From: a virus
Strand: one strand, 5' to 3'
DNA length: 64,000 nucleotides
IMG/VR virus record: IMGVR_UViG_3300022921_001344
Span: 1 to 64,000 of that record
Part shown: in pieces, positions 1 through 31,205 of the stretch
Layout: each line of letters opens with the position of its first letter
Position numbering within the stretch: the first letter of the stretch is position 1
Notes under the pieces: generated by a model
The model's database searches: none
Told to the model about the DNA's origin: nothing
What the model saw: only the letters and a program-made list of their open reading frames with translations
Program-made: the position numbers and the translations under genes

Positions 1-762
1 TATATTTGTAGTGGTACGGTAGAAGAATTGTACTGGGTAGGCGGCGAACCATTAATGTATGATATACATTGGCGAGCAATGGATAGACTAGCACAAGATG
101 ATAATCTTAAAAAAGTACATTTAAGATATAACAGTAATTTAAGTCGTGTGAGATTTAAAGACTATTACTTATACGATTGGTTACCACAAGCAAAAGACTG
201 GACAATGTGTGCAAGTATAGACGGCACGGGTTGGATAGGAGAGTTTATTCGTACAGGTCTTAATTGGGAAGAGTGGGATAAAAATTTCAGAGAAGGCGTG
301 GCATTACCCGGTGGTAAAGATAAAATGTTAATGGATCTAACACTTACAGGTCCTGGTATGCTAGACTTAAAAAACTTTTTTGACTATGCATTAGAACTAG
401 ATGTTAAAATAGAAACAAAACGTATGTTTGCATTTCATAGTGATATAGTTTTTAGTCCTATGGCATGGCCTAGACATATATTAGATCGTATTATACATGA
501 AAACTTAGACTATATACGCCCACGTGCAACAGATAAACAACAAACTCTAATAAATGAATTAGAAAATATGCTCACAGTTCCTAATTTTGAGGAACAATGG
601 CCAGAAGAACATGAAGAAAATTTCTTTAGAGGCAGAGGGTGGCAAAGAAAAATTGCTGAGATGAGACCAGACCAAAAGTATACAATTGAAGATGTTTATA
701 AACTAGATGATCAATTATATGATTGGTGGATGAAAATAGATAAAAAGCATAACCAAAGATAA
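1..762 (+). CDS. Twitch/SPASM-type radical SAM protein, C-terminal part (5' cut by window edge)
   Basis: The reading frame is open from base 1, so this is the C-terminal 253 residues of a longer protein; the TTG at 28 is not a start. The GGEP motif of radical SAM enzymes (SAM amino-group contact) is visible at about base 43, in the context YWVGGEPLM. It is followed by a region closely resembling the same part of the protein at 5886-7136. The CxxxCxxC cluster motif and the N-terminal cysteines must lie upstream of the window. It is the first of six related enzymes in this block. Substrate unknown. Confidence 0.85.
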   Translation, partial: YICSGTVEELYWVGGEPLMYDIHWRAMDRLAQDDNLKKVHLRYNSNLSRVRFKDYYLYDWLPQAKDWTMCASIDGTGWIGEFIRTGLNWEEWDKNFREGVALPGGKDKMLMDLTLTGPGMLDLKNFFDYALELDVKIETKRMFAFHSDIVFSPMAWPRHILDRIIHENLDYIRPRATDKQQTLINELENMLTVPNFEEQWPEEHEENFFRGRGWQRKIAEMRPDQKYTIEDVYKLDDQLYDWWMKIDKKHNQR

Positions 763-782
763 ATTTCTTTATCAAAAAACCT

Positions 783-790
783 GATAAATA
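783..790 (+). promoter_or_regulatory. T4-type late promoter (GATAAATA)
   Basis: GATAAATA lies 35 bases before the ATG at 826, in the only real gap (63 bases) of the plus-strand block. It matches the motif seen before virion genes in this window. An AGGAG ribosome site follows. It would drive the UDP-sugar dehydrogenase and the genes after it. Confidence 0.5.
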
Positions 791-825
791 TAACTGTATT
801 TAATACAACACAACAGGAGATAAAG

Positions 826-2148
826 ATGGCCTCAGTCGGATTTATCGGTGTAGGTAAGTTAGGACAAGCCTGTGCCGAGATGGTCGCTGAAGTACATGAT
901 GTTGTTGGGTATGATGTTAATCCTGTAGAGCCTGAAAACTTTGCAATGGTAGACAGTATAGCAGATGCTGTACATGGTAGAGATATTGTTTTTATAGCAG
1001 TACCTACACCGCATGACCCACAATATGATGGAAAAGCACCAACCAGCCATTTACCTAATAAGGACTTTGACTATTCATTGGTCAAGCAAGTACTTAGTGA
1101 AGTAAATGCGGTTGCAACAAAAGACCAATTAGTAGTCCTTATATCAACAGTACTCCCTGGAACAACCAGACGTGAGTTTATTGATTTAATTCCAAATGCC
1201 CGATTCGTTTATAATCCATATCTTATTGCTATGGGTACAGTAAAGTGGGATATGGTAAATCCAGAAATGGTAATGATAGGAACAGAAGATGGAAGTGAAA
1301 CAGGTGATGCAAAAGAACTTGTTGACTTTTATAAAACAATAATGCAGAACGAACCAAGATACATTATAGGTACTTGGGACGAAACAGAATGTATAAAAGT
1401 ATTTTACAATACATTTATTAGTGCTAAAGTAAGTCTAGTAAACATGATACAAGACGTTGCGGAAAACTTAGGCAACATAAACGCAGAAGTAGTTTGCGAT
1501 GCACTTGCACAAAGTGACAGACGTATTATGGGACCAGGTTATATGAAACCAGGTATGGGCGATGGGGGTGCTTGTCATCCAAGAGATAATATCGCTTTAC
1601 GTTGGATGGCTGAAGAACTTGACCTAGGATATGACTTGTTTGATGCTGTGATGTTATCAAGAGAAAAACAAGCAGAAAACATGGCTAATAGACTTTGCGA
1701 ACTTGCAGAAGGAGATTTTCATCCTACAACAAGAACAATGATAGGTGCATTGCCAGTAATTATTGTTGGTAAAGCATACAAACCATTAGTAGAATATGAA
1801 GCCGGTTCGGCAAGTATGTTAGTAGGCCACTATGTACAAAATCGTGGTCATGAATTACATTACTTAGACGAAAAAACCGGAGATATGCCTCCGCAATCAG
1901 TATTAGATAAACCTGCTGTATATTTACTTGCACATAATCCTGGCATAACATATGGTGATCAATTAGATACTGTACCAGGCTGGTATGGTGATCATAAAGT
2001 TACAGACTGTGATGATGCATTAGTATCAACAGGTAATGGTACAGAGTTAAACTTTGCTTCAGGTAGTATTGTAGTTGACCCATGGAGAAAAACTCCAGAC
2101 ATAGAAGGTGTTAAAGTAATTCATTACGGAAATACTAGAGGAAAATAG
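826..2148 (+). CDS. UDP-glucose/GDP-mannose dehydrogenase family protein
   Basis: This protein of 440 residues has an N-terminal Rossmann NAD motif (GFIGVGKLG, residues 5-13). The catalytic cysteine block GDGGACHPRDN has Cys250, and a Lys/Asn-bearing central helix lies near residues 189-202. The family oxidises the C6 alcohol of a UDP- or GDP-sugar to the uronic acid in two NAD-dependent steps. The exact nucleotide sugar cannot be told from sequence. The start has AGGAG seven bases upstream and a late-type promoter before it. One base separates it from the next gene. Together with the GalE at 28918-29889 it implies that the phage remodels sugar nucleotides for the transferases encoded nearby. 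Confidence 0.88.
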   Translation: MASVGFIGVGKLGQACAEMVAEVHDVVGYDVNPVEPENFAMVDSIADAVHGRDIVFIAVPTPHDPQYDGKAPTSHLPNKDFDYSLVKQVLSEVNAVATKDQLVVLISTVLPGTTRREFIDLIPNARFVYNPYLIAMGTVKWDMVNPEMVMIGTEDGSETGDAKELVDFYKTIMQNEPRYIIGTWDETECIKVFYNTFISAKVSLVNMIQDVAENLGNINAEVVCDALAQSDRRIMGPGYMKPGMGDGGACHPRDNIALRWMAEELDLGYDLFDAVMLSREKQAENMANRLCELAEGDFHPTTRTMIGALPVIIVGKAYKPLVEYEAGSASMLVGHYVQNRGHELHYLDEKTGDMPPQSVLDKPAVYLLAHNPGITYGDQLDTVPGWYGDHKVTDCDDALVSTGNGTELNFASGSIVVDPWRKTPDIEGVKVIHYGNTRGK

Positions 2149-2149
2149 G

Positions 2150-3484
2150 ATGTCAGAACCTAGATATTGCAGTTTACTTTGGGCACATATCAGTAATGAG
2201 CCTTTGGGTCATGTTAGAACATGTTGTATAGCAAAAGAGCGAGTCAAAGATGACGAAGGTAATGACTTTACACTGGGTTCAACATCTGTAAGAGACATTT
2301 TTCATAGTGAATTTTATAAAAAAATAAGACAAGACATAAGAGAAGGAAAACTTCCAGAAAATTGTGAACCTTGTTGGCGAGAAGAAGATAACGGAAAAAA
2401 ATCTAAAAGACAAATTTATAATGAATATGCTGAATGGAGATTTGACCCTATAGATTATTCTAAAGAACCTGACATGCCTCAAGATATGCAACTTATTTTA
2501 AGTACTACATGTAATTTAAAATGTAGAAGTTGTAATCCAAACTACAGTAGTAAATGGGTTAAAGAAGCAGATGCAAGAGGTCTTCCTTATTTTAAAGAAA
2601 AAGTTACAATCCCAATGGATGACCCTGAAAAGTCAAAGTTTTGGACTGAAATAGATGATTGGTTACCACATATTAGAAATCTAGAAATTATGGGCGGTGA
2701 GCCTCTGTACATGAAAGAGTTCAAATCCTTTGCAAATAAATTAATAGATCAGAATATTGCACCTAAAGTAGGTTTAAGTTTTAGTACAAATGGAACTATG
2801 GCAGGTGGAGAATTTTTTGAGAGAATTATAGATAATTTTAAATCTGTATCTTTTAATGTAAGTATAGATGCCGCTGAAAAGAAAAGATTTGACTATTTAA
2901 GACACGGTGCTGATTGGAACGAAGTAGAAAAAAATTTAGACACAATTCACAGTATGATTGGTCAGGGGAATGTTTTTGCTGGAATCACATGTACAGTAAC
3001 AGCACTAAATGTTATGTATCTTACAGAAATGCATAAAGAGTTTAACGAAAGATGGCCTAAATTTCATATATTTCATAATATAGCAAATTTACCTAGTTGG
3101 TATAACCCTAATGTGTTCCCAAATGAAATGAAAGAAGATATTGTTAAACCGTTAAGGGAAGGATTAGAAAATAATGTTTTTAAAACAGATCATGCTATTT
3201 CAGAAATAACAGGTATAATAAATCATTCCATAGCACCCAGAGAAGATGTAATAAGACCATATGGCAATCAGCCTACAGATACAATAGAAAATGAAATTGC
3301 TGTACGTTGGAATATGTTTAGAAAGCAAGTAGTTGCTGGTGATGAATATAGAGATGAAGATTTTAGAGATGTATTTCCTGAGCTTTGGGAAATCGTAAAA
3401 GAGGATTTCTTTTATAGTAAATTATATGAAAGAGCAAAGGCAGACCCAATGTACGGTGCAATTGATAAGGGAACATTTATATAA
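2150..3484 (+). CDS. Twitch/SPASM-type radical SAM protein (copy 2)
   Basis: 444 residues. The radical SAM cluster motif CNLKCRSC (Cys121, Cys125, Cys128) would bind a 4Fe-4S cluster for SAM cleavage; GGEP follows near residue 182. N-terminal to the core is a SPASM/twitch-like cysteine set: Cys7, Cys25-Cys26, Cys72 and Cys75, around a W...CC...VRDIF...R...CEPCW pattern. SPASM domains normally follow the core; here the set precedes it. Such domains usually carry auxiliary clusters in peptide-modifying enzymes. The gene overlaps the next by one base (TAATG), indicating translational coupling. The substrate is unknown. Confidence 0.88.
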   Translation: MSEPRYCSLLWAHISNEPLGHVRTCCIAKERVKDDEGNDFTLGSTSVRDIFHSEFYKKIRQDIREGKLPENCEPCWREEDNGKKSKRQIYNEYAEWRFDPIDYSKEPDMPQDMQLILSTTCNLKCRSCNPNYSSKWVKEADARGLPYFKEKVTIPMDDPEKSKFWTEIDDWLPHIRNLEIMGGEPLYMKEFKSFANKLIDQNIAPKVGLSFSTNGTMAGGEFFERIIDNFKSVSFNVSIDAAEKKRFDYLRHGADWNEVEKNLDTIHSMIGQGNVFAGITCTVTALNVMYLTEMHKEFNERWPKFHIFHNIANLPSWYNPNVFPNEMKEDIVKPLREGLENNVFKTDHAISEITGIINHSIAPREDVIRPYGNQPTDTIENEIAVRWNMFRKQVVAGDEYRDEDFRDVFPELWEIVKEDFFYSKLYERAKADPMYGAIDKGTFI

Positions 3485-4722
3485 TGAGTAATACTTTTTG
3501 TCCGCTACCTTGGATGCATTTAGGAACACACCCACATGGTGGTGTTACTCCTTGTTGTATTTCTGATATGACTGCCGGCAAGAATAGAGCCAGGAACTAC
3601 ACTGATCAAGGTGATGAGTTCTATAATTTAAATGATCACAATATTGATACACATATGAACAGTGATTATTTTAAAGAAATTAGATTGGAGATGTTAAATG
3701 ATGTGGAGCCTAAAGCATGTAAAAGATGCTACGATGAAGAAAGAAAAGGAATTAAGAGCAAACGTGTCCACGAGTCCGAGGTATATAAGGACTTTGACGC
3801 CGATTACTCATCCAGAATTACAAGTGAGGATGGTAGCATACCTATGGATCTTCGCTTTGTTGAGTTGCGTCTTGGTAACGTATGTAATGTCCGCTGTCGC
3901 ACTTGTAATCCAGCAAGTAGTTCGAGGTGGGTGGCAGACTATAAAAAGATTGTTGACTCGCTAGATTTTGTAAATGATGGATACAGTTGGTTAGATCACA
4001 AACACGATTTTCAATGGCCAGAAGATGAAAACTTTTATGAGGATTTATTTGAATGTGCACCTAACATGGAAGTTTTATATATAAATGGTGGGGAACCAAC
4101 ACTAATTAAAGCACATTGGAATTACTTACGCAAATTAGTTGATAGTGGTCGTAGTAAAAATATTATATTGTGGTATAATATTAATATGACAAACTTACCT
4201 AATGAAGCAATTCCGCTTTGGAAAGAATTCAAAGAGGCCAGAGTCTGTCCTAGTATAGACGATCTGGAACACAGAAACAAATATATCAGATTTCCTACAG
4301 AATGGTCAGATGTAGAAAAGAATTTAGATACTGTAATAAATGTACCTGAACTCACTGTGAGAATAACACAAACAGTAAGTGCATACAGTTACATTTATTT
4401 AGACGAGTTTTTAAACTGGGCACCATGCCCAGTTGATATGAACTTTGTATATGACCCTGATTACCTATCGCCTGGAATATTACCTCCTGTCGTGAGACAC
4501 GAGGCCCATGCCAAGTTTAGAAAAACGATGGGTAACAGACATGAACTCGGAACATTGTTGAGCATGTATGATAACGATGATTGGGATGAAGTTAAATGGG
4601 AACACTTTTGTCGGTACAATGACGAGTTAGATAAGATACGCCAACACGAAAATGGTTGGAGAGAAATTTTTCCTGAACTAATAGCACTTTTAGATAAACA
4701 TGGAGTAAAACATGCATATTAG
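3484..4722 (+). CDS. Twitch/SPASM-type radical SAM protein (copy 3)
   Basis: 412 residues. N-terminal cysteines Cys6 (FCPLPW), Cys24-Cys25, Cys79 and Cys82 form the twitch/SPASM-like set. The core motif CNVRCRTC uses Cys134, Cys138 and Cys141, followed by NGGEP near residue 204. The protein diverges strongly from its neighbours outside these motifs, so the six copies are old paralogues with probably different substrates rather than recent duplicates. The 3' end overlaps the next start by 11 bases. Confidence 0.88.
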   Translation: MSNTFCPLPWMHLGTHPHGGVTPCCISDMTAGKNRARNYTDQGDEFYNLNDHNIDTHMNSDYFKEIRLEMLNDVEPKACKRCYDEERKGIKSKRVHESEVYKDFDADYSSRITSEDGSIPMDLRFVELRLGNVCNVRCRTCNPASSSRWVADYKKIVDSLDFVNDGYSWLDHKHDFQWPEDENFYEDLFECAPNMEVLYINGGEPTLIKAHWNYLRKLVDSGRSKNIILWYNINMTNLPNEAIPLWKEFKEARVCPSIDDLEHRNKYIRFPTEWSDVEKNLDTVINVPELTVRITQTVSAYSYIYLDEFLNWAPCPVDMNFVYDPDYLSPGILPPVVRHEAHAKFRKTMGNRHELGTLLSMYDNDDWDEVKWEHFCRYNDELDKIRQHENGWREIFPELIALLDKHGVKHAY

Positions 4723-5914
4723 AATGTCCTTAAATATAGGATCTAAAGTCCTTGAAAATGGAGTAACTGTTTTTTTTAAAGACGAGTTTAGTCCTTGTAG
4801 ACTATACAATGATTTACCAAAAGGAGACTATATTATAATAGATTTTAGTTCCGTCTGGGAACAAGACTTTATGTTTTTTGCTATGAAAACTATAGAAAAA
4901 GCAAAAGAAATCTCCAGAAATGTTATAATGACATATCAAACAGAAGCATTTCATAGTAAATTTTGGGAATTCACGTGCCAAATTTTAGAGGATCAAGGAT
5001 TCAACAGGGCAATGATTATAGATGCCGGAATAAATTTAGGTTTTGAAGGTTATGTTAATACAGGACATAGATTAAAAGTAGTACATGTTCCTGCTTCACA
5101 ATGGTTTGATTATTATACAGATATCGTACCTGATAATTCACTACATATGCAAGAATTTCAAGGAGATAGAAGTAAACATTTTATTTCTCTTGCGAGGTTT
5201 GCCAGAGCGGAAAGAATAGAATTTACAAACGAAATATTAGATAGTTTTTTAAGATACAAAGGCAGATTCAGTTGTGGATGGGGAGATATGCAGGATAACC
5301 CTATGGTTTGGCATAAAGATTCTACAGTATGGAGTTTAATACCTAATCATCTTAGGAAATATTACCCAATTACATTAGGTGATAGTCTAGATGATCAACA
5401 CAAATTAATGGATCATATTGCCGATAATGTTTTTAATGTTGTATTAGAAGCAGAGACTGGGCATAATCCAGCATGTTATAAAATACAGAGTGACATACGA
5501 GCAACATGGGAAAGAACTGCGGGTAGATTTTTAACAGTTTATAGTGATAGAATAATGGCAACAGAAAAAACCACAAAGGTTTTTGCAATGAATCAGATTC
5601 CTTTATTTTTAGGTCCTCCTGCTATGGTGTTTACACTGGATCATTTAGGATTTGATATGTTTGATGATTTAGTGGATCATGATTATGATAAAAAGGATTC
5701 TTTAGAAACAAGAAGTAAATTATTAATTAAAGAATTAAAGCGACTTTGTACTAAACCTTTATCAGAATTAAACGAGTTTTTAGAAGAAAACAAAGATAGA
5801 TTAAAAGGTAATCAAGATCATTGCAAAGTTTTAGGTAATAGATTACATAGCAGAGCAATAAATTACACAAAAGAGTTTATTATAAATGGAAACTTGGAAT
5901 ATAGAGAATTATAA
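4712..5914 (+). CDS. GT10-like glycosyltransferase-type protein (TEK motif)
   Basis: 400 residues with no full-length family recognised. Around residues 245-320 there is an E-T-rich helix, then TEKTTKVFAMNQIPLFLG, then LGFDMFDD. This arrangement (acidic residues, TEK, a hydrophobic stretch ending in P-x-x-x-G) resembles the donor-binding part of GT10 fucosyltransferase-like enzymes. The same pattern occurs in the protein at 40548-41846, so the two are distant paralogues. GGAG six bases upstream supports the ATG at 4712; an alternative ATG is at 4724. It lies between radical SAM genes and overlaps the next by 29 bases. A sugar transfer role is inference. Confidence 0.55.
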   Translation: MHIRMSLNIGSKVLENGVTVFFKDEFSPCRLYNDLPKGDYIIIDFSSVWEQDFMFFAMKTIEKAKEISRNVIMTYQTEAFHSKFWEFTCQILEDQGFNRAMIIDAGINLGFEGYVNTGHRLKVVHVPASQWFDYYTDIVPDNSLHMQEFQGDRSKHFISLARFARAERIEFTNEILDSFLRYKGRFSCGWGDMQDNPMVWHKDSTVWSLIPNHLRKYYPITLGDSLDDQHKLMDHIADNVFNVVLEAETGHNPACYKIQSDIRATWERTAGRFLTVYSDRIMATEKTTKVFAMNQIPLFLGPPAMVFTLDHLGFDMFDDLVDHDYDKKDSLETRSKLLIKELKRLCTKPLSELNEFLEENKDRLKGNQDHCKVLGNRLHSRAINYTKEFIINGNLEYREL

Positions 5915-7136
5915 AGACAGTGATGTAATGTGTATCCTACCCTGGATTCACATGCACCCGTGGCCAAACGGCAAAACTATGCTGTGTTGTGATTCTCCTT
6001 GGGAAGATCATATAGGTGATTTACGAGAAAGTAGTTTACAAGAAGTTTGGAATAGCGAAAAAATGAAGCAAGTTCGCTTAAACATGTTAAACGGTAAAAA
6101 GTGTTCGCAATGTGTACGTTGCTATGAGAAAGAAGAAAAAGGCCATGACAGTTTAAGAGTCAGAAGTAATCGAGATTGGTTAGAACCTCATTGGGATAAA
6201 GTTGAAAAAACAAATGCAGACGGTAGTCTCGATGATCTACACATTGTATACTTAGACTTTAGATTTAGTAATGTATGTAACTTACGTTGTAGATATTGCG
6301 GACCTGAACTAAGCAGTAATTGGTATGCTGATGCTAAAGCAAGTACATTTAATATAAGTCCAACAGAACGTATCATACAAATTCGTAAAGACGTAGACGG
6401 CTTTATGGAAGAATTTGATCCTATGTTAGAACATATTGAACAAATATATTGGGCTGGCGGCGAACCTATATTAATGGACGAACATTGGGGTATAATGAAC
6501 AGACTTGTAGAAATGGGTAAAACAGATATACGAATATTTTATAATACAAATTTTACAACATTAGAATACAAGGGGCAGAGTGTATTAGATTTATGGAAAA
6601 AATTTGAACATGTATGCATAGGAGCAAGTTTAGATGCAGAAGGTTCAAGAGGGGAATATCAACGAAAAGGTACTGTTTGGTCTGATGTTATAAATAATAT
6701 GGAAGAATTTAGAAAAGTCAATCACCTAACTAATAATCCTGCAAAAGACAAAGTTGTAGACTTCTACATAAGTGCAACTGTAAATGCCTATAATGCTTGG
6801 CACATAACAGATTTTCACAGAAACTGGGTTGATCAGGGGTACATATTACCCGGTGACTGGTATATGAATGTACTATTAAATAATCCACGTTTTAGAATGA
6901 GTGTGTTACCTAAAGAATTTAAAGAAAAAATAAAAGAAAAATGGTTGGCACATTTAGAATGGCTAGAACCTTTAGATCATATAGGTAGAGCAACAGAAGG
7001 ATATAAAAGTGCAATTAAATTTTTAGATGATGACGATACTGATCTTTGGCAGGAGTTTAAAGATTTTAATAAAGAGTTTGATAAGTTAAGAAATGAAACA
7101 TTTGATGAAATATTTCCGGAGTTGGCAGAATTATGA
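5886..7136 (+). CDS. Twitch/SPASM-type radical SAM protein (copy 4)
   Basis: 416 residues. The N-terminal half shows the clearest SPASM signature of the set: Cys16 in CILPW, Cys34-Cys35, a GDLRESSLQEVWNS helix, then Cys73, Cys76 and Cys79. The core motif CNLRCRYC has Cys131, Cys135 and Cys138; AGGEP is near residue 195. The C-terminal half is similar to the truncated protein at 1-762. The start lies 29 bases inside the preceding gene and the stop overlaps the next start (ATGA). Probably an anaerobic radical enzyme with two metal clusters; substrate unknown. Confidence 0.88.
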   Translation: METWNIENYKDSDVMCILPWIHMHPWPNGKTMLCCDSPWEDHIGDLRESSLQEVWNSEKMKQVRLNMLNGKKCSQCVRCYEKEEKGHDSLRVRSNRDWLEPHWDKVEKTNADGSLDDLHIVYLDFRFSNVCNLRCRYCGPELSSNWYADAKASTFNISPTERIIQIRKDVDGFMEEFDPMLEHIEQIYWAGGEPILMDEHWGIMNRLVEMGKTDIRIFYNTNFTTLEYKGQSVLDLWKKFEHVCIGASLDAEGSRGEYQRKGTVWSDVINNMEEFRKVNHLTNNPAKDKVVDFYISATVNAYNAWHITDFHRNWVDQGYILPGDWYMNVLLNNPRFRMSVLPKEFKEKIKEKWLAHLEWLEPLDHIGRATEGYKSAIKFLDDDDTDLWQEFKDFNKEFDKLRNETFDEIFPELAEL

Positions 7137-8326
7137 GTAAGTATTTTTGTCCAATGCCGTTTGTAAATTTAGAAGCCAGAACTGATGGCTCAATGTCTAT
7201 CTGCTGTCAAATGGATGAGCTAATCAGTAAAGACGGCCAAAATTTATCTCTTACACACGATGTATTAACCGACGGCTGGAGAAGTGAATGGTTAGCAAAT
7301 TTAAGAAAAGATTTTTTAGATGGTAAAAAACCTGCTTCTTGCTACAGTTGTTGGACTGCCGAGGATGCCGGAATAGACAGTAAACGTCAGAGAGCATTGA
7401 GAGACTTCCCTACAGCATTAGAAGAAGCATTGGAAAAGAAAGAACACATTAAACCAAAATCTATGGATTTAAAACTTGGTAATGTATGTAATAATAAATG
7501 TAGAATTTGTAATAGTTTTGCAAGTAGTCTATGGGTACCAGAAGAGAAAAAACGAGATGGTACAAACAATTTGTTTTGGGATAGAATGCGTACAGTGGGT
7601 AGATGGCCAGAAACAAATGAGGCATTTTGGGAAGACTTTGAAGAACTTAGTGATGACTTAGAAGTATTAGAATTTTATGGCGGTGAACCATTATTAATAA
7701 AAAGACATTATGATATTTTACAGGATTTAGTTGATTCCGGTAAAAGTAAAGATATAAAATTATTGTATAATACAAATGGTTCAATATATCCTGAGAGAGG
7801 ATTAGAACTATGGCCTCACTTTAAACAAGTAATGTTAAGTTGGAGTTTTGATGGAGTAGGAGAGCAATTTGAATACATAAGGCATCCTGCTAAATGGAAC
7901 GAGGTACAAGAAAATTTACAAAAAGTATTAGATAAAAATATACCAAATATATTTGTAGACATATGCTATACTGTGGGAATCTTTAACATTTTTTATATGG
8001 AAGAAATTTTAGAATGGAGGGACAATTTTAAACCAGATCTTCCTATATATTTTAATCATGTTTATACGCCAGATCATTTTAGTTGCAAGGTATTACCTAA
8101 AGAAATAAAAGATAAAATTGTAGACAAGTATAAAGATAATACACATCCTGACATTGTGAGTTCTGTTAAATATTGTACAGATGTAGATTATGATGTAAGT
8201 CTTATGGAAATGTTCTATAAACAGGTTAAGTTTAGTGATGAATTTAGAGGAGAAAATTTTGCTAAAACTTTTCCAGAATTTTATAATTTATTAAAAGAAT
8301 ATGGTAATGCACCGGAGGACTTTTAA
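7133..8326 (+). CDS. Twitch/SPASM-type radical SAM protein (copy 5)
   Basis: 397 residues. N-terminal cysteines are Cys6 (FCPMPF), Cys24-Cys25, Cys70 and Cys73. The core CNNKCRIC uses Cys119, Cys123 and Cys126, and YGGEP is near residue 183. The gene overlaps the preceding stop by four bases, and the following 2OG oxygenase starts within its stop codon (TAATG). Both flanks being coupled suggests the products are needed in fixed ratio. The substrate is unknown. Confidence 0.88.
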   Translation: MSKYFCPMPFVNLEARTDGSMSICCQMDELISKDGQNLSLTHDVLTDGWRSEWLANLRKDFLDGKKPASCYSCWTAEDAGIDSKRQRALRDFPTALEEALEKKEHIKPKSMDLKLGNVCNNKCRICNSFASSLWVPEEKKRDGTNNLFWDRMRTVGRWPETNEAFWEDFEELSDDLEVLEFYGGEPLLIKRHYDILQDLVDSGKSKDIKLLYNTNGSIYPERGLELWPHFKQVMLSWSFDGVGEQFEYIRHPAKWNEVQENLQKVLDKNIPNIFVDICYTVGIFNIFYMEEILEWRDNFKPDLPIYFNHVYTPDHFSCKVLPKEIKDKIVDKYKDNTHPDIVSSVKYCTDVDYDVSLMEMFYKQVKFSDEFRGENFAKTFPEFYNLLKEYGNAPEDF

Positions 8327-8949
8327 TGGATAAATTAATTTTAAAGTCTAAACTTAATAATAAACAACAACATATTTTGGGTAATATTTTTGATTCTAAT
8401 TTATACGAAGACTGGATTTATTATGATGAATCAGAAGCAAATAAAGATATTAAATCTACTGTTGAAGCAAGGGGAAGAAAATATCTAAACTTAAATGATA
8501 TAGACAATAAGGAATTACAATCCGTATTAACAGAAATAAAAAAAGAATTATTTGAATCTAATGGATTTGATGAGTCAAAATTTAAATTGATAGAGATTGA
8601 TGAAGGAAAGGGTTTATACCCTACTATGCTTTCGTGTATATATAAAGTTGATGGACTACCTAATCATGGTGTACACACTCATAAAGACTGGAGAGGTGCA
8701 AATGACGAAATGCAGGTAAGATTTAATTATCTTGTCAGGAAACCGGAAGAAGGGGGAGAACCTGTAATTAATAGAAGAGTAATTGATTTACAGGAGAAAG
8801 AAGGTATGGTACTTTTTGCATCAGAATGGCTACATGCAGGTATGCCAGTAGAAGGTAGCAAAACAAGAATATTATTAAGTATTGGTTATCTTGTTGAAAA
8901 CGAATATGCACAGGAATTAGAAAAGAGATTTAATTATGGAAGAATATAG
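8326..8949 (+). CDS. 2-oxoglutarate/Fe(II)-dependent oxygenase-like protein
   Basis: 207 residues. A double-stranded beta-helix oxygenase is suggested by the iron triad: an HxD within VHTHKDW near residue 118, a distal His in EWLHAGMP near residue 165, and the 2-oxoglutarate-binding Arg in KTRILLSIGYLV about 12 residues later. This matches the prolyl-hydroxylase-like family, which hydroxylates peptides or small molecules. It sits between two radical SAM genes, overlapping one by one base and the next by 14. A hydroxylation step in the same pathway is inferred. Confidence 0.75.
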   Translation: MDKLILKSKLNNKQQHILGNIFDSNLYEDWIYYDESEANKDIKSTVEARGRKYLNLNDIDNKELQSVLTEIKKELFESNGFDESKFKLIEIDEGKGLYPTMLSCIYKVDGLPNHGVHTHKDWRGANDEMQVRFNYLVRKPEEGGEPVINRRVIDLQEKEGMVLFASEWLHAGMPVEGSKTRILLSIGYLVENEYAQELEKRFNYGRI

Positions 8950-10243
8950 TAAAACATTTTGTCCTTATCCTTGGATATCGATAATGACTCAACCTACTGG
9001 TACTGTTAGTTGGTGTTGTGTTGCGAGAGACAATTTTAAAAATGATGACAACACTATGTTCGACCTTAATAAGGGAGACAAAATAGAATCTGTCTGGAAT
9101 AACAATCATATGCGTAAAATCCGTAAGCAAATGATAGAAGGCGATGTGGTAAAAGGTTGCGAACATTGTTATGATTTAGAAGATATGGGTTTTCCTAGTT
9201 ATAGAACAAACTATATCAGAGACTGGTTTGAATATAGCGGAAGAGGAGAGGAAATACATGAGATTATAGAACGCAGTATAAACAACGACTATAAAGTAGA
9301 AGAATCTCCAATGTACTTGGATTTTAGGTTAGGCAATATGTGTAACCTGAAGTGTAGAATGTGTCAACCTCAAAATTCAAGTCAAATACAAAAAGAATAT
9401 AAAAAAATAGAAACTGCTGATCCAATGGCAGGAAAATTTATTAAGGACAATTTCACCTGGGGTCAATTTGTTGATCACTTAACGCCATGGCAAGATGATC
9501 CGGAGTTTCTGCGTCAAGTAGAAGAATGGTTACCCAGTGTTAGTAAATTATATTTCACTGGAGGAGAGCCAACTATTATAGAACGTGTATATTGGATCAT
9601 GGAAAAATGTGTTGAAATGGGTATAGCCCAAAATATTGAATTGGTATTTAATAGTAATATGACTAACGTTCAAGGAAGATTTTTAAATTTAGTAGAGCAG
9701 TTTAAAAATGTTTTAATGTGTATAAGTGTTGATGCATACGGCAAAGAAAACGAATATATCCGTGGGGCGAGCCATTGGAAACAAGTAGATAAAAATATTA
9801 GAAAATATTGTGAAAGTGAAGTTGTAGGTAGAATTTTATTTTCACCAGTAATACAAGTTTATAATATTTTAACAATTACTAAATTATTAGATTACTGTGA
9901 AGAATTAGAAGAAGAATACGGTAGAGAAATTTTTGTTACGTTTTTAATATGTGATTATCCAACAAGTTTAGATTTTAGAATCTGTCCGGAGCAAGTTAGA
10001 GAAGTTGCGGCAGGAAGATTAGAGCAATGGCTTAAACGCAGTAAAGTACTTGTAAACAGGCCTGAAAATGTACAAAGTATAGAAGCAACAATAAAGGCAT
10101 TAAAAGAAAATCGTAAAGAGAATTGGAGACAAGAATTAAAGACTTTTCAAAAGTATACAAATTTATTAGACAAGCAAAGAGACGAATGCATGGAAGATGC
10201 ATTACCGGAATTATATAGATTAATGTATCAATCAAATAGGTAA
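8936..10243 (+). CDS. Twitch/SPASM-type radical SAM protein (copy 6)
   Basis: 435 residues. N-terminal Cys9 (FCPYPW), Cys27-Cys28, Cys75 and Cys78; core CNLKCRMC with Cys136, Cys140 and Cys143; TGGEP near residue 204. The C-terminal third is charged and probably helical. It is the last radical SAM member of the block and is followed by a 40-residue protein and the carbamoyltransferase. The substrate is unknown. Confidence 0.88.
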   Translation: MEEYSKTFCPYPWISIMTQPTGTVSWCCVARDNFKNDDNTMFDLNKGDKIESVWNNNHMRKIRKQMIEGDVVKGCEHCYDLEDMGFPSYRTNYIRDWFEYSGRGEEIHEIIERSINNDYKVEESPMYLDFRLGNMCNLKCRMCQPQNSSQIQKEYKKIETADPMAGKFIKDNFTWGQFVDHLTPWQDDPEFLRQVEEWLPSVSKLYFTGGEPTIIERVYWIMEKCVEMGIAQNIELVFNSNMTNVQGRFLNLVEQFKNVLMCISVDAYGKENEYIRGASHWKQVDKNIRKYCESEVVGRILFSPVIQVYNILTITKLLDYCEELEEEYGREIFVTFLICDYPTSLDFRICPEQVREVAAGRLEQWLKRSKVLVNRPENVQSIEATIKALKENRKENWRQELKTFQKYTNLLDKQRDECMEDALPELYRLMYQSNR

Positions 10244-10247
10244 TATT

Positions 10248-10370
10248 ATGGAAGAAAATAAAGATAAAAAAGAAATTAATGATGAATTAGAATTGACTCC
10301 TGAAGAGGAAGAACAACTAAAAAAGAAATTAGAAGAATTAAGAAAAAGAGACCCTTTTATATATAGATGA
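10248..10370 (+). CDS. Small charged protein, 40 aa
   Basis: The frame encodes 40 residues, almost entirely charged (MEENKDKKEI... ending RKRDPFIYR), predicted as a single helix with a LTPEEEEQLKKK segment. It fills the whole gap between copy 6 and the carbamoyltransferase, and its TGA overlaps the next ATG (ATGA). This is good evidence that it is translated. It might be a small partner of a neighbouring enzyme. No family recognised. Confidence 0.65.
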   Translation: MEENKDKKEINDELELTPEEEEQLKKKLEELRKRDPFIYR

Positions 10371-11881
10371 GAATATTAGGTTTAAGTTTTGGATTTCATG
10401 ATGCAGGAGTCTGTATGCTTGATAACGAAACCATAGAATTTGCAAGTCATAGTGAAAGATATAGTAAAATAAAAAACGATCCTTGGCTAAACCATGAAAT
10501 AATTGCAGATGCTATTGCAGGCGGTAAACCTGATGTTATAGTCTTACATGAAAAAGCATGGGCCAAACGTGCAAGAAATATATATGCAGGTAATTGGTCG
10601 GCATTCAAGGAACCTACACAAACAGAATGGATTAAAAAGTTTTATCCAGAACTAAAAGATATACCTATTGTAGATTATTGGCATCACGAAACACATGCGG
10701 CCGCAGGTGTACTAACAAGCAAGTTTGATAATGCAACGGTAATGGTTATAGATGCTATAGGAGAATTTGATACTGCAACTATTTGGGATTGGAATTGTGG
10801 TATACTAGAAAAGAAAGATAGTGTAAAGTTTCCTAACAGTATAGGATTATTTTATAGTGCCATAACAGCTCTAGTTGGATTGAAACCAATGGAAGATGAA
10901 TATATACTTATGGGCATGGCCGCATACGGTGAACCTAAGTATGCCAAATATTTAGAAAAAACTTTGTTTAAAAACAACACATTAAAAACAAGAAAAAATT
11001 TACAAAGAGGATTACCAAAGAATTTTTTAAATAGAGATCAATACACTACAGTAGATGAATTTGGGCATACAAAAATAGACTACGATATAGCCGCAAGTGC
11101 TCAAAAAGTAGTAGAAGATAAAGTTATGGCATACGCCAGAAAAGCAAAAAAGATTGCAAAACACAAAAATTTAGTTTTTATGGGTGGTGTATCATTAAAT
11201 TGTGTAGCAAATAGTTTGTTACATAATCTTTTTGATAACATTTATATAATGCCTAACCCGGGTGACTGCGGAAGTAGTTTAGGGGCGGCGGCATTGTATC
11301 TGTATAACGAAACAGGCAAGTTAGTTAATTGGCATGATCCATATTTAGGATATAATATAGAGGGTAAATATCCTATTGAAAAATCACTAGAAAGTTTAAG
11401 AGCGGGGGAAATATTTGGTATAGCGAATGGTAGAGCAGAATTTGGGCCTAGAGCATTAGGTAATAGGACATTGTGTTCCGATCCTAGAGGAAGTACAATT
11501 AAGGACAAAATGAATGTTATTAAAAAACGACAAAAGTTTAGACCATTTGCACCAATGATTTTAGAGGAGCATGTACACGAATATTTTGAAATGCCAGGAG
11601 GTATTTCACATGCACCTTACATGCAGTTTGTAGCAAAGTGCAAAAAGCCAGAAGAGTTTCCTGCCATTGTACATAAAGACGGAACAAGTCGAGTACAAAC
11701 AGTTAGACGCAGTGAACACCCTGAATTACATAAATTATTAACTCTCTTTTACAAAGAAACTGGTTGCCCTATGCTTGTAAATACAAGTTTAAATATTAAG
11801 GGTCAACCTATAGTTAATGACGAAAAAGATGCAGAAACATTTGCAAAGCATTACGGAGTAAAAGTACATGTCAGAGATTAA
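10367..11881 (+). CDS. Carbamoyltransferase (NodU/CmcH/TobZ family)
   Basis: 504 residues. N-terminal Kae1-like domain: GLSFGFHDAGV (residues 5-15) and the metal/adenylate-binding HHETHAA (His106, His107, His110). Later come MGGVSLNCVAN, the PNPGDCGSSLGAA block and the C-terminal GPRALGNRTLC motif. The family uses carbamoyl phosphate and ATP to place a carbamoyl group on a sugar or antibiotic hydroxyl. It is somewhat short compared with TobZ (about 570) but all main motifs are present. Coupled to its neighbours by ATGA and a 14-base overlap. Inferred to carbamoylate the glycan or product made by this block. Confidence 0.88.
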   Translation: MRILGLSFGFHDAGVCMLDNETIEFASHSERYSKIKNDPWLNHEIIADAIAGGKPDVIVLHEKAWAKRARNIYAGNWSAFKEPTQTEWIKKFYPELKDIPIVDYWHHETHAAAGVLTSKFDNATVMVIDAIGEFDTATIWDWNCGILEKKDSVKFPNSIGLFYSAITALVGLKPMEDEYILMGMAAYGEPKYAKYLEKTLFKNNTLKTRKNLQRGLPKNFLNRDQYTTVDEFGHTKIDYDIAASAQKVVEDKVMAYARKAKKIAKHKNLVFMGGVSLNCVANSLLHNLFDNIYIMPNPGDCGSSLGAAALYLYNETGKLVNWHDPYLGYNIEGKYPIEKSLESLRAGEIFGIANGRAEFGPRALGNRTLCSDPRGSTIKDKMNVIKKRQKFRPFAPMILEEHVHEYFEMPGGISHAPYMQFVAKCKKPEEFPAIVHKDGTSRVQTVRRSEHPELHKLLTLFYKETGCPMLVNTSLNIKGQPIVNDEKDAETFAKHYGVKVHVRD

Positions 11882-12065
11882 TTGGCATAATATACAACGC
11901 AAACTAGAAGGCAGATGTCACATGTGCGGTGGTGAATTACCTGATCATAGAGGCGTATGTCCTGTGTACGGAGAAGAACTTAAGAAAAGATATGACTCCT
12001 TAAATGAATCTGTAAAAAAAATAAGTGATATAGCACAAGATATAATAAAGAAGCATAATGTTTGA
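11868..12065 (+). CDS. Small zinc-ribbon-like protein, 65 aa
   Basis: 65 residues. CHMCGGELPDHRGVC carries a CxxC and a third cysteine, with His24 as a possible fourth ligand, so a small metal-binding knuckle is likely. It is followed by a helical tail. It overlaps the carbamoyltransferase by 14 bases and the giant repeat gene by 8, so it is part of the same translational chain. Function unknown. Confidence 0.65.
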   Translation: MSEINWHNIQRKLEGRCHMCGGELPDHRGVCPVYGEELKKRYDSLNESVKKISDIAQDIIKKHNV

Positions 12066-15000
12066 TATATTCTATATAGGCAAAAACGAAACATTAGAGA
12101 AAGATTTTCCTTTCGCTAAACAAGTACCGAGCCATGAAGATATAAATCCTATTACAAAGATGTATTGGGTGGTGGAACCTAATATAGAAGTAATAGATTC
12201 AGAAGTTTTTAATTATAGACCTGAAAGTTTTGATATGGAATATAAACATATATGGAAATGGGACGATCAAAATTATGGTGGTATATCATTAATACCAAAA
12301 AATAAAACAGAAGGTATAAAAGAAATTAATAAAGTAGTTTGTAAAAAATCTTTTACAAAATTAAATACTAAGACACCAGGAAAATACTTTGAAAATAACC
12401 CCTACGCAACCCATGTTTGGTGTATTGATCCTGAATACAAATTGCCTGAGGATTTAAATTGGGCACCTAACAATTTTGAACCTAACTTTATACATAGTTT
12501 TCATTTAAGAGGACAATTAGAGCATAAGTATCCTGCAGAAGAAGGAGGTATCAAACTTTATCCTAGAAACTGGAAAGAATGCGATACAAAATATCATAAT
12601 TTTTTAAATGCAAGTGCAACATATCCTGTATTTTATGTTAAAGATGTAGAAGATTATTCTCAACGTAAAATATTTACAGATGATTATGTGTGGCTTATTG
12701 ATTCACAATATAAGATAAACGCAGGTACTCTAGATTGGGTTCCAAATCCTTTTGAGGACACAATGATACATGTATTTAAAATGCCATATCAATTACAAGA
12801 AAAATATCCTATGGCAATGGGCGGTATAAGACTCGTACCTAAAAAATGGCATGAAGCAGAAACAAAAATACATCCTGCTTGTCCTGTAGAAGATGAAAGT
12901 TATGACGTATTCTATGTAGATGAAGATGAGTTTACGGCTGAATCATATACAGAATGTGCCGAACGTAGTAAAACAGATTGGTTCTGGGTAGTAGACAGAG
13001 AGTTTCAATTTAACGGAAAACTATTATATGTACCTGCTATACACGAAAGAGATTATATACATGTATTTAAGGTCCCGGGACATTTAGAAGAAAGATATCC
13101 ACCCGATTATACAGACGCATGGGATAATCGATGTGGCGGTATTAGACTTGTACATAAAGAGTTTGATTTCACTAAACACAAATATCAAAAAGATATTGTG
13201 CCTGTTAGGTATGATATTTTTTATACAGATAATATAAATGATTATGAATCAGCGGCTAGAAAGAGTAGAACAAAAATGTTTTGGTTAGTTGACAACGAGC
13301 ACGAACTAAATGATGTTTTTAAATATGTTCCTGCTAAGTACGATCAAAAAACAATACAAGTATTTAAAATACCTAACCAGTTAGAACATAAGTATCCAAA
13401 AAGTATTACTAACATAAGCGACAATAGATGTGGTGGTGTTAAGTTAGTACCTAAAGCATATAATACTGACAGCATTAAATATGTTGCTACTAATCCTACT
13501 AGCGATAGAAGTTACCCAGTTATTAAAGTTGATAACGTTGACGAGTATACAGAAGTATTTCAAGACTGTTGGATTGTTGACCGTGAGTACGAAATAAATC
13601 AAAAGATTGAATGGGCACCACCATTGTTTCAACAAAATTGCATTCATACATTTCATGTTGGAGATCAACTAAGACATAAGTATCCTGAAAGCATAGGTGG
13701 ACTTAGATGGGTACCAGTAGATTGGAGTGGCGACATAGTCATACATGCAGAAATGCTAAATGCTATACCAGAGTATCCTATTTACTTTGTAGATGACCCC
13801 TCAATAAATCCTAAAAAAGATCACAGTTGTTGGGTAGCAGATAAATCATACCGCTTAGATGAAAGTATAAAATGGGCACCAAGTTCCTTTGACATAGACA
13901 AAGTTCATGTTTTTCATGTACACAATCAATTAACAAACAAATATCCAGAAGAAATGGGAGGCTTATATTGGTATCCTGATAGCAGTACAGAAGAATTAAA
14001 AATACATAAAGAACCTTTAGTTATAAATGCCAAAACATTCCCGGTATATAGAGTAAGTAATCCAAGTGACTATAACGATATTACAGAAGATTGCTGGTTA
14101 GTGGACGAAGAGTATGTGTTAGATGATAATGATTTTAAATTTATTCCATGGCAGAACGAAAACGAAAAAGACCAAATACATGTTTATCAAGTTAGCGGAC
14201 AGTTAGAGCATAAGTATCCAGATGAGATGGGAGGTATATATTGGGTACCTGCTAATCATAAAGATAGCAAATTAAATATTCATAACACAACACCATTTGG
14301 AGAACAACTTACATTTCCTGTGTTTGAATCTGAAGAGCAAGGCCGTATAAAAACTTCAACTAGTTGGTTTTGGGTTATAGATCCAGATGTAAATGTACTT
14401 GAAACTTTTGATTTTAGGTTTGTACCTAAAATTTGGGATAATGGAAAAACACATGTATGGCAAAAACTAAATCCAATTACGGGTAGGCAGTACGATTACG
14501 GTGGTGTAATGTTATGTCCTAAAGTAGCACAGACAAAGGGTAGACCGAAATATATTAGGGAACCTGCATGTACACAAAAAGAATATCCAGTGTATAAGTT
14601 ACAGGCAGATGACTATAAAGACGGCTTACAGAAGGTCTATGAGCGTCTAGCAGGGGATTGTGCAACAGATATGTATTGGATTGTAGATGCTTACACCCAA
14701 ATAGATCAAGATTTTAAATTTGATTATTATCCAACACAATGGGATAAAAAGAACGTTCATATATGGCAAAACGAGGATGGAGAATTTAGAAATATTAGAT
14801 TAGTACCTAAAGAAACATTTTTAGATAGACAATATACTGATAAAGAGATTGCTAACAATAGTTTTGAACATCTAAAATTAATAAATACTATAGCAAGCCT
14901 TAAGCCTAAATGGCCAGTTATCCACTTGCAGAGTTTAGAACGCAAAGAGTTTATAAACGCGATAAAGGACATAGAAACCCCCTTTGTTTGGACTGTAGAC

Positions 15001-15900
15001 CCAGATGTCAAAGTGGAACAAGACGTGCTTGACCGTGGATTCATGCCTTTGATTACTGACGTAAACAAAATTCATACATGGCAGAAAATAAATTCCAGAA
15101 CAAAAAAAGTTCATGCATACGGCGGCTTAAGATTATGGCCCACTAATTTAGACCTTGATAATATAAAATCTGACGATCTTAAATTTAATAGATTTAAAAA
15201 TTTACAATATGTAAAATCCCCAGGCTCTATTACTAATGAATATGATATTGTGTTTTTATCATATAAAGAAAAGGGTGCAGAAGAACGATATAATAATTTA
15301 AAAGAAAAATACAATATTATATGGATTAAAGACATAGAGGGAATCTTTAATGCACATAAGAAAGCATCTGAAGAAGTAAATAGTAGTATGTTCTGGGTCG
15401 TAGATGCTGATGCAGATATAGTTGACGACTTTGATTTTTCCTATATACCTGATGTATATGATGAAGAAGTTGTACATGTATGGGGAAGTAAAAATCCAGT
15501 CAATAATTTAGAATATGGTTATGGAGGAGTAAAACTGTTTCCAACTAATATGGTTAGAGAAGCAGACACTTGGGGTATTGATTTTACAACTGGTTTGAGT
15601 AGTAGGTTTAAATCTATGCCTCAAATCAGTTGTATTACAAACTTTAATGTTGACGAATTTAGTACATGGCGTAGTGCGTTCAGAGAATGTGTAAAATTAA
15701 CATTAAATAATGACGAAGAAAGTAATCAAAGATTAGAGGCTTGGTTAAAATGTGATACTGAAGCACAATTTGTAGAATATGCAAGAAAAGGTGCTGAAGA
15801 AGGCAATAAATATGCCAAAGAAAATATTAACAACATAGAAAATTTAAATAAAATAAACGACTTTAAATGGTTAAATGAGCAATATAATAAATCTAAATAG
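12058..15900 (+). CDS. 1280-aa protein of twelve glycosyltransferase-like repeats
   Basis: Twelve tandem units of 85-110 residues begin at about residues 1, 106, 191, 284, 387, 488, 575, 663, 755, 845, 954 and 1064. Each has a FWVVD-type strand, a W/Y-P loop, a VHVF or HVW strand, often QLEHKYP, and GGI-x-L-x-P. Units 2-8 form one subtype (HKYP) and units 9-12 another (YGGV). Only unit 12 looks like a fuller GT-A domain, with an LSYKEKGAE start, GIFNAHKKA and a DADAD metal-type motif. A separate 105-residue C-terminal domain (TWRSAFRECVKL) follows. No signal peptide. Enzyme, lectin-like scaffold or modification substrate are all possible. Confidence 0.7.
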   Translation: MFDIFYIGKNETLEKDFPFAKQVPSHEDINPITKMYWVVEPNIEVIDSEVFNYRPESFDMEYKHIWKWDDQNYGGISLIPKNKTEGIKEINKVVCKKSFTKLNTKTPGKYFENNPYATHVWCIDPEYKLPEDLNWAPNNFEPNFIHSFHLRGQLEHKYPAEEGGIKLYPRNWKECDTKYHNFLNASATYPVFYVKDVEDYSQRKIFTDDYVWLIDSQYKINAGTLDWVPNPFEDTMIHVFKMPYQLQEKYPMAMGGIRLVPKKWHEAETKIHPACPVEDESYDVFYVDEDEFTAESYTECAERSKTDWFWVVDREFQFNGKLLYVPAIHERDYIHVFKVPGHLEERYPPDYTDAWDNRCGGIRLVHKEFDFTKHKYQKDIVPVRYDIFYTDNINDYESAARKSRTKMFWLVDNEHELNDVFKYVPAKYDQKTIQVFKIPNQLEHKYPKSITNISDNRCGGVKLVPKAYNTDSIKYVATNPTSDRSYPVIKVDNVDEYTEVFQDCWIVDREYEINQKIEWAPPLFQQNCIHTFHVGDQLRHKYPESIGGLRWVPVDWSGDIVIHAEMLNAIPEYPIYFVDDPSINPKKDHSCWVADKSYRLDESIKWAPSSFDIDKVHVFHVHNQLTNKYPEEMGGLYWYPDSSTEELKIHKEPLVINAKTFPVYRVSNPSDYNDITEDCWLVDEEYVLDDNDFKFIPWQNENEKDQIHVYQVSGQLEHKYPDEMGGIYWVPANHKDSKLNIHNTTPFGEQLTFPVFESEEQGRIKTSTSWFWVIDPDVNVLETFDFRFVPKIWDNGKTHVWQKLNPITGRQYDYGGVMLCPKVAQTKGRPKYIREPACTQKEYPVYKLQADDYKDGLQKVYERLAGDCATDMYWIVDAYTQIDQDFKFDYYPTQWDKKNVHIWQNEDGEFRNIRLVPKETFLDRQYTDKEIANNSFEHLKLINTIASLKPKWPVIHLQSLERKEFINAIKDIETPFVWTVDPDVKVEQDVLDRGFMPLITDVNKIHTWQKINSRTKKVHAYGGLRLWPTNLDLDNIKSDDLKFNRFKNLQYVKSPGSITNEYDIVFLSYKEKGAEERYNNLKEKYNIIWIKDIEGIFNAHKKASEEVNSSMFWVVDADADIVDDFDFSYIPDVYDEEVVHVWGSKNPVNNLEYGYGGVKLFPTNMVREADTWGIDFTTGLSSRFKSMPQISCITNFNVDEFSTWRSAFRECVKLTLNNDEESNQRLEAWLKCDTEAQFVEYARKGAEEGNKYAKENINNIENLNKINDFKWLNEQYNKSK

Positions 15901-16555
15901 TTGGAAGGAAGTTACAGAATATATTGATAAAGGATTCTGGAAACCTACACCTAGTTATTTTGAACATATAGTCCAGCATGGAAACTATTATCCTGCACAC
16001 GCATTTAGCAAAGGACAGTTAGCAAGTAAAAGTTGGTTATTAAACGAACTTTATCACACATATCCTAAAATTCCTAATGTTAATGTAGCAATATTAGGTA
16101 GTTGGATAGGTGCATTAGTTGAACCATTACATCAAAATTTCAATATAGAAAGAATATATGGAATAGATACAGATGCAGAAGCAATAGAAAAATCAGAAAA
16201 ATTAAATCAACCTTTTGTACAAGACAGTTGGAAATATAAAGGGATAGTAGCAGATGTAGACATGTTAGATTGCAGTAATATGGAGTTTGAAACGAGTGGA
16301 GAACTAATTAATGTAAAACCTGATTGGATAATAAACACTAGTTGTGAGCATATGAGTACAGGTTGGTTCGATACTGTGGATTCAGATCAATTAATTATAA
16401 TGCAAACTAACGATTCTCCAGATTTCGAGGGTCACATAAACCCTGTGGCAAGTTTAAAAGACATGGAACTACTCTATCCACTTAGTAATTCAATGTTTTC
16501 TGGCCAATTAAAGACACCTGCATACACTCGTTTTATGCAAATAGGATACAAATAA
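15875..16555 (+). CDS. Class I SAM-dependent methyltransferase-like protein
   Basis: 226 residues. The Rossmann signature is visible: VAILGSWIGALVEPL (motif I, residues 69-83) and the acidic GIDTDAEA strand end about 13 residues later. These indicate a SAM-binding methyltransferase. INTSCEHM near residue 155 takes the place of the usual motif IV. It overlaps the repeat gene by 26 bases and ends the plus-strand block. Its stop directly abuts the stop of the converging lipoprotein gene with no base between. It probably methylates the same product as the other tailoring enzymes (inference). Confidence 0.7.
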   Translation: MSNIINLNSWKEVTEYIDKGFWKPTPSYFEHIVQHGNYYPAHAFSKGQLASKSWLLNELYHTYPKIPNVNVAILGSWIGALVEPLHQNFNIERIYGIDTDAEAIEKSEKLNQPFVQDSWKYKGIVADVDMLDCSNMEFETSGELINVKPDWIINTSCEHMSTGWFDTVDSDQLIIMQTNDSPDFEGHINPVASLKDMELLYPLSNSMFSGQLKTPAYTRFMQIGYK

Positions 16556-27582: not shown

Positions 27583-27583
27583 A

Positions 27584-31078: not shown

Positions 31079-31205
31079 CGTCATCTCCTAAGCCGCCGTA
31101 ATCAACCACATCTGTGATTTCATCATCTAAACTTTGAGCATAATCTTGTTTTTGATCTGCTTCTTCTTTAGATATTTTACTAGGTTTTTTCTTTTTGTCA
31201 ACCAT
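31071..31205 (-). CDS. Hypothetical acidic small protein, 44 aa
   Basis: 44 residues: lysine-rich start (MVDKKKKPSK), acidic end (GGLGDDDA). It spans exactly the space between two genes, overlapping the histone-like gene by one base (TAATG) and the glycosyltransferase by 8. Function unknown. Confidence 0.6.
   Translation of the reverse strand: MVDKKKKPSKISKEEADQKQDYAQSLDDEITDVVDYGGLGDDDA

Follow-up and report, generated by a model that had tools for sequence, protein, structure and literature searches.

The first 16,555 nucleotides of the viral DNA stretch analyzed here (the window; positions 1 to 64,000 of the 64,412-base IMG/VR record IMGVR_UViG_3300022921_001344) carry a block of 14 genes, all on the plus strand, in which radical S-adenosylmethionine (rSAM) proteins are interleaved with sugar-handling enzymes. 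We propose that this block belongs to a late operon for building and modifying a virion glycan, probably one on the tail fibers, with the rSAM enzymes tailoring its sugars, and we give this reading about an even chance of being correct. That the block makes or decorates a glycan is, judged from the enzyme families encoded, well supported, and comparison with related contigs establishes its gene content, synteny, conservation, and the placement of a promoter-like motif. The window is part of the larger genome of an uncultured marine jumbo phage, placed as T4-like because it encodes a phage DNA polymerase (phrog_262, 653 bits) and because gp23-type major capsid matches are seen in related contigs, the longest of them spanning 250,519 bases. 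The left edge of the window cuts the block, which runs on leftward, and the window appears to hold the 3′ part of a larger sugar-handling locus.

An earlier note, made from the sequence alone, had described 14 same-strand, mostly overlapping genes that include six rSAM proteins, one of them cut, and most of that description holds. Overlaps occur at 10 of 13 junctions, the remaining gaps being 63 nt (5′ of the UDP-sugar dehydrogenase gene UGD), 1 nt, and 4 nt, and the count of 14 requires the 40- and 65-residue open reading frames (ORFs) of Table 1. All six rSAM proteins match NF033640 (N_Twi_rSAM; curated cut-off, 170 bits), the five full-length ones above cut-off at 300–389 bits; the truncated one, rS3, has a complete 470-residue copy in the related contig G016 (L031 18245–19657) that scores 294 bits. 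The UDP-sugar dehydrogenase and carbamoyltransferase are confirmed as well: UGD carries the NAD-binding PF03721 and central PF00984 domains above cut-off and matches phrog_9148, with NCBIfam cut-offs not reached, and the carbamoyltransferase CarbT has both Carbam_trans domains (PF02543 and PF16861) above cut-off. Its nearest solved relatives are TobZ, GdmN, and decarbamoylnovobiocin carbamoyltransferase, which put carbamoyl groups on small molecules or their sugars. The suggested 2-oxoglutarate (2OG) oxygenase finds backing in a weak PF13640 match below its cut-off, and within the clade of related contigs this gene was seen nowhere but in this phage and the two contigs near-identical to it. 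For the suggested methyltransferase, MT226, support is weak (PDB profile matches, E 0.03); the gene is present in every relative with that end of the block in view. The GT10-like label for the gene following rS5 is unsupported: the protein has a TEK-type motif only and no Pfam, NCBIfam, PHROG, or PDB match.

The glycan-making character that the note assigned to the block is reinforced by several glycosyltransferases in addition to UGD and CarbT, and by NeuB, cytidylyltransferase-like, SGNH-like, and sulfotransferase-like proteins in relatives, the last three named from sequence motifs with no family match. DxD332, encoded to the left of the window, was predicted by AF2 with a pLDDT of 89, and its top PDB matches are mostly GT-A enzymes, at a TM score of only ~0.3; Asp64 and Asp66 of its D-x-D motif are invariant. 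The 1280-residue protein that the note called a giant glycosyltransferase-repeat protein consists of 12 units of ~95 residues (9–13 in relatives), which a unit profile revealed and self-BLAST did not. Its last unit is homologous to the neighboring DxD332 (5e-17), and the D-x-D motif is lost in most units. Both proteins are predicted, from fold and motif, to be members of the GT-A-type glycosyltransferase family. We see in the 1280-residue protein an enzyme or scaffold derived from a glycosyltransferase sooner than the recipient of modification that the note suggested it might be. GT287, also left of the window, matches glycogenin (GT8) at 3e-7, and it and GT299 carry LDxD-type motifs; the GT287 alignment, like a broad 11-sequence rSAM alignment, was too variable for scanning. 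A further core protein left of the window, p254 (L022:2723–3487), falls in the NeuB family (PF03102, 2e-14), but a working sialic-acid-type synthase was rejected because both metal-binding His residues are replaced (GYEGR, EKYLG) relative to PseI/SiaC. Two relatives, G005 and G009, carry an extra canonical NeuB with both His residues (e.g., L011:1347–2168) and a cytidylyltransferase-like gene beside it.

The connection to the virion comes from the sequence left of the window. The earlier note had asked for a leftward extension, and contig G016 (91.6 kb), near-identical over the shared stretch, carries the block 10 kb further in that direction, adding two more rSAM proteins (eight in total), p254, and three GT-A-type glycosyltransferases, behind tail-fiber genes. 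The gene order in G016 begins with a structural gene, tail217, an S74-type fiber, stru345, accessory genes, p119, GT299, GT287, p214, and DxD332, continues with an outer-membrane-protein-like gene, rS1, p83, rS2, p254, and rS3, and then enters the part seen in the window with UGD, rS4, rS5, the GT10-like gene, rS6, rS7, the 2OG gene, rS8, the micro-protein gene DPFIY, CarbT, p65, the repeat protein, and MT226. The fiber gene matches phrog_19602 (tail fiber) and the first gene matches phrog_10938 (virion structural protein). From its position behind the tail-fiber gene, stru345, with ~23–28% Ser plus Thr, is probably a virion protein too, and in 78 of 103 loci it lies immediately 5′ of p119. 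The order tail217-fiber-stru345-p119-GT299-GT287-p214-DxD332 is kept far outside the clade. When DxD332 was the sole criterion of selection, 75 of the 80 loci chosen also had GT299, 72 had p119, and 62 had stru345; where at least 8 kb of downstream sequence is available (47 loci), 37 have an rSAM gene and 29 have two or more. These counts suggest a constant fiber-p119-glycosyltransferase unit, found in ~100 marine phage loci, to which an rSAM array is frequently added. DxD332 relatives are encoded by at least 590 viral stretches and rS6 relatives by at least 510, whereas a search of 50,697 deposited phage records at E 1e-3 gave no match to rS1, DxD332, or stru345. The contig NZGL01000008.1 (L087 and L089) is assigned to a Gammaproteobacteria genome but has the tail217-stru345-p119-glycosyltransferase-rSAM module, so that it probably comes from a phage and was placed in a bacterial bin.

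A shared upstream motif ties the tail genes to the enzymes. The T4 late motif is TATAAATA, which in the clade falls below its expected frequency and was uninformative. Counting k-mers without prior bias in the gaps upstream of clade genes brought out two promoter-like classes: a sigma-70-type pair and the strand-specific GATAAATA. The latter lies upstream of tail217 (7 of 7), DxD332 (9 of 10), UGD (12 of 14), and stru345 (4 of 8), and upstream of none of 253 internal block genes and none of 47 genes in five opposite-strand families. One opposite-strand gene, d85330, does have it (9 of 9), and sigma-70-type sites lie upstream of the opposite-strand genes SWIM, d83285, and d87744. In a 250-kb relative, GATAAATA also precedes a sheath-like gene and several other structural genes and is twice as frequent as the reversed control motif (50 versus 26). 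By analogy with TATAAATA, GATAAATA may be a late promoter, and we propose that the copy in front of UGD starts a UGD-to-methyltransferase transcription unit.

The block is not a chance assembly, as its order is kept in 20 related contigs, the rSAM frames have no internal stops, and dN (nonsynonymous change) is far below dS (synonymous change) in all eight rSAM genes, with a mean pN/pS of 0.15–0.28. The note had named scattered homologs that never occur together, or frameshifts in several members, as findings that would speak against it, and had recommended a co-occurrence search in viral and bacterial genomes; the homologs do co-occur, and the rSAM frames of relatives are free of frameshifts. 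Nine relatives show the block in full, and in them rS1–rS8 follow one another in identical order, while the accessories between them (GT10-like, 2OG, SGNH-like, and sulfotransferase-like genes) are gained and lost. The block is rearranged in G020, and its 3′ neighbors in the clade are FG-GAP, SWIM, and ATPase genes.

The auxiliary-cluster domain of these N_Twi_rSAM proteins is N-terminal, with a SPASM/twitch match at residues 6–83 and four conserved cysteines; a C-terminal SPASM domain, the mark of SPASM-type peptide maturases, was not found in the block rSAMs. Of the 126 rSAM ORFs that are complete in the clade, 125 retain the CxxxCxxC and GG(E/D)P motifs and the four N-terminal cysteines. 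In a 202-sequence FastTree analysis, each of rS1–rS8 forms its own clade (8–34 genomes each, support 59–100); within this sample, those of rS1, rS2, rS3, rS4, and rS7 contain viral sequences alone, and bacterial sequences, for the most part from Bdellovibrionota, also fall in those of rS5, rS6, and rS8. The sequences thus indicate eight nonredundant lineages under strong purifying selection. Several long relatives hold more, and one record of 328 kb has 21 matches to N_Twi; in many phages, rS1 and rS6 form the minimal pair. No solved relative of rS6 was detected by sequence, and the gene neighbors of bacterial rSAM relatives (mostly Bdellovibrionota loci), of which 26 of 122 are other radical SAM proteins, revealed no substrate. 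Bdellovibrionota-type contigs of up to 493 kb (L075, L079, and L083) have DxD332- and rSAM-like genes together, adjoined by repeat-protein-like or MT226-like genes, and could represent a cellular counterpart of the module.

A possible sequence of events can be outlined. Late transcription units would start at the tail genes, the DxD glycosyltransferase, and UGD, so that the enzymes would be made during virion building. Cytosolic GT-A-type glycosyltransferases (GT299, GT287, the divergent DxD type, and the 9–13-unit repeat protein) would assemble a sugar chain from UDP-uronic acid supplied by UGD and other nucleotide sugars. The eight rSAM enzymes, which we infer to act on sugars, could then tailor the sugar units radically, with dehydrogenation, epimerization, deoxygenation, or bond formation as candidate reactions, followed by carbamoyl and methyl modifications and, in relatives, acyl/SGNH, sulfo, and hydroxyl modifications. 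The acceptor would be a virion protein, likely the Ser/Thr-rich stru345 or the adjacent fiber, yielding a decorated virion tail. To our knowledge, the chemistry of such a sugar decoration has not been worked out in any phage. A virion glycan is favored because of the sugar enzymes, the lack of a flippase or polymerase in a hydropathy scan, the fixed link to a Ser/Thr-rich tail protein, and the shared late-type control, and among the three recipients named in the earlier note (virion fibers, host surface, and repeat protein) the fibers fit best.

Several observations weigh against this proposal. stru345 has no PDB match, and its matches are confined to unnamed viral proteins. Ten of the 47 adequately flanked loci carry the fiber-glycosyltransferase unit with no rSAM gene nearby, suggesting that the rSAM enzymes are dispensable for that unit itself. 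Within the 250-kb relative alone, GATAAATA lies near gene starts in 32 of 50 cases versus 12 of 26 for the reversed control (p 0.15); as this test is not significant, the case for the motif rests on its conservation by gene family. Radical SAM enzymes with auxiliary clusters mostly work on peptides, often maturing them, and the DPFIY micro-protein sits inside the block. Finally, late expression would also fit an alteration of the host surface ahead of lysis.

Such an alteration, in which host surface polysaccharide (lipopolysaccharide [LPS] or capsule) would be remodeled to exclude superinfection or to keep progeny off debris, is a possibility that we regard as unlikely. Similar pelagimyophage islands are read that way in PMC7029224. 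LPS pathways commonly include GT8-type glycosyltransferases and UGD, the block has an outer-membrane-protein-like gene in some relatives, and the window encodes a TonB/Oar-like barrel and an FG-GAP protein that resembles a lipoprotein. However, a hydropathy scan of the block found no flippase- or polymerase-like multi-pass membrane protein, no lipid-carrier transferase was seen in it, and the synteny with the tail protein is tight. The late-promoter-like motif, as opposed to the sigma-70-type sites before some opposite-strand genes, also points away from the host surface.

The DPFIY micro-protein bears on whether the rSAM enzymes act on a ribosomal product. It has 40–77 residues, with a hypervariable N terminus and an invariant C-terminal DPF(I/V)Y, and was detected in all but one of the 21 contigs examined from the clade and, in the wider set of 151 loci, in 25. 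A variable N terminus with an invariant core would suit a precursor of a ribosomally synthesized and post-translationally modified peptide (RiPP), and DPFIY tracks the rS7 lineage without exception (25 of 25 versus 23 of 126 loci lacking it, p 1e-15), sometimes adjoining rS7 or rS3 with no neighboring CarbT; for this reason we keep a peptide substrate as an alternative. Yet its strongest partner is CarbT (23 of 25 versus 3 of 126, p 9e-22), whose start it often overlaps by 4 nt, and many rSAM-rich phages have no DPFIY. A bacterial CarbT (L065) has in the equivalent place a DUF5989 peptide ending in APFIYTVF (PF19451, 5e-21), an analogy that suggests that DPFIY is a carbamoyltransferase partner; the phage peptides themselves do not match PF19451, and DPFIY is absent beside the cyanophage CarbTs checked. 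A combined scheme, in which eight late rSAM steps on the tail protein or DPFIY plus glycosylation would give a RiPP-like or radical-tailored virion modification, is rather improbable, and we know of no virus-encoded example. That the rSAM enzymes modify the tail protein or a RiPP-like DPFIY precursor, with the sugar genes adding groups, seems quite improbable to us as well.

Hypermodification of phage DNA with glycosylated, carbamoylated, or oxidized bases is very unlikely: viral DNA-hypermodifying glycosyltransferases are known (reference 46 of PMC12619734) and the window encodes GTP cyclohydrolase I and a QueE-like protein, but these possible base-modification genes are separate and on the opposite strand, the block has no recognizable DNA methyltransferase, nucleotide kinase, or base hydroxylase, and late-type regulation beside fiber genes does not suit that role. 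Least credible is an island of loosely gathered auxiliary cargo that serves no shared product, as variable accessories might suggest, given the nearly invariant core order, the eight rSAM lineages separately kept in nine fully seen contigs, and the strong purifying selection.

The note considered the number and order of rSAM enzymes unlike ordinary phage auxiliary genes, which goes too far, since rSAM-rich phages and islands have been published (PMC2853527, PMC5332604, and PMC7029224). Pelagimyophage host-recognition islands likewise join tail fibers with glycosyltransferases and rSAM cassettes; compared by description, that cluster lies between VrlC and gp14 and, unlike the block, is variable and nonsyntenic, and the ordered eight-rSAM set, repeat protein, CarbT/DPFIY pair, and promoter linkage do not figure in the account of it in the part of PMC7029224 available to us. 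The T4-like ocean genome TARA_ERS488813_N000010, likened here by description, is also rich in rSAM genes, with 12 read as Fe-S cluster metabolism (PMC5332604). The virulent T4-type Campylobacter phages CP220 and CPt10 have 11–12 rSAMs, partly modular, with a putative glycine amidinotransferase in each divergent cluster (PMC2853527); their rSAM proteins score at most 35 bits against N_Twi_rSAM and hence belong to another family. Cyanophages P-SSM2 and S-CAM1 have, as here, CarbT (~29% identity) and sugar-nucleotide (heptose) enzymes beside a tail-fiber-like gene, in a simpler cluster with no annotated adjacent rSAM gene and no DPFIY peptide. Among deposited phages, clear relatives of the rS6 type (24% identity) are confined to Vibrio phages K566 and K567, K566 having two matches above the N_Twi cut-off, and their annotated neighborhood is without the sugar-enzyme set of the block. 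Mycobacteriophage virion glycosylation offers a precedent for phage-encoded capsid and tail glycans and is set apart, by description, in that PMC12619734, which cites it, mentions no rSAM array. In open-licence literature, we found no description of the ordered eight-rSAM architecture, the repeat protein, or the promoter linkage. The abundant rSAM genes of T4-like ocean phages have so far been attributed to Fe-S metabolism or taken for fitness genes or cassettes of islands; if virion decoration is correct, they would gain a testable role, and hundreds of uncultured marine phage contigs would carry a glycosylation system missing from isolate collections. The block also offers eight separately conserved enzymes of an uncharacterized family for biochemistry.

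Table 1. Genes and upstream motif of the block as seen in the window
Feature	Coordinates	Strand	Evidence or remark
rS3, N_Twi_rSAM, 5′ end cut by window	1..762	+	NF033640 139 bits for fragment
GATAAATA late-promoter-like motif, 36 nt upstream of UGD	783..790	+	kept before UGD in 12/14 relatives
UGD, UDP-sugar 6-dehydrogenase	826..2148	+	PF00984 1e-18, PF03721 7e-15, phrog_9148 2e-93
rS4, N_Twi_rSAM	2150..3484	+	NF033640 300 bits; separate clade
rS5, N_Twi_rSAM	3484..4722	+	NF033640 352 bits
Accessory protein labeled GT10-like (label unverified)	4712..5914	+	no library match; many relatives lack it
rS6, N_Twi_rSAM, most widespread of the eight lineages	5886..7136	+	NF033640 389 bits
rS7, N_Twi_rSAM	7133..8326	+	NF033640 363 bits
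2OG-Fe(II) oxygenase-like accessory	8326..8949	+	PF13640 1.4e-4, under its cut-off
rS8, N_Twi_rSAM	8936..10243	+	NF033640 350 bits
DPFIY micro-protein, 40 aa, conserved C terminus LRKRDPFIYR	10248..10370	+	4-nt overlap with carbamoyltransferase start
CarbT, NodU/TobZ-type O-carbamoyltransferase	10367..11881	+	PF16861 2e-52, PF02543 5e-38, phrog_1601 5e-101
p65, 65-aa zinc-ribbon-like micro-protein	11868..12065	+	weak zinc-ribbon matches; 14/21 contigs
12-unit repeat protein (1280 aa), GT-A-type glycosyltransferase-derived	12058..15900	+	last unit retains DxD
MT226, probable class I SAM-dependent methyltransferase	15875..16555	+	weak PDB profile matches, E 0.03

Elsewhere in the window, the genes of interest lie on the minus strand. 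The FG-GAP-repeat protein with a lipoprotein-like start (16556–19039) is convergent with the block and kept in many relatives, and the Oar/TonB-receptor-like outer-membrane beta-barrel protein (PF25183, 5e-16) occupies 62129–64000. The QueE-like protein and GTP cyclohydrolase I (26205–28270) possibly belong to a 7-deazaguanine pathway. A nucleotide-sugar epimerase and a group 1 glycosyltransferase (28918–31084) form a second sugar locus outside the block.

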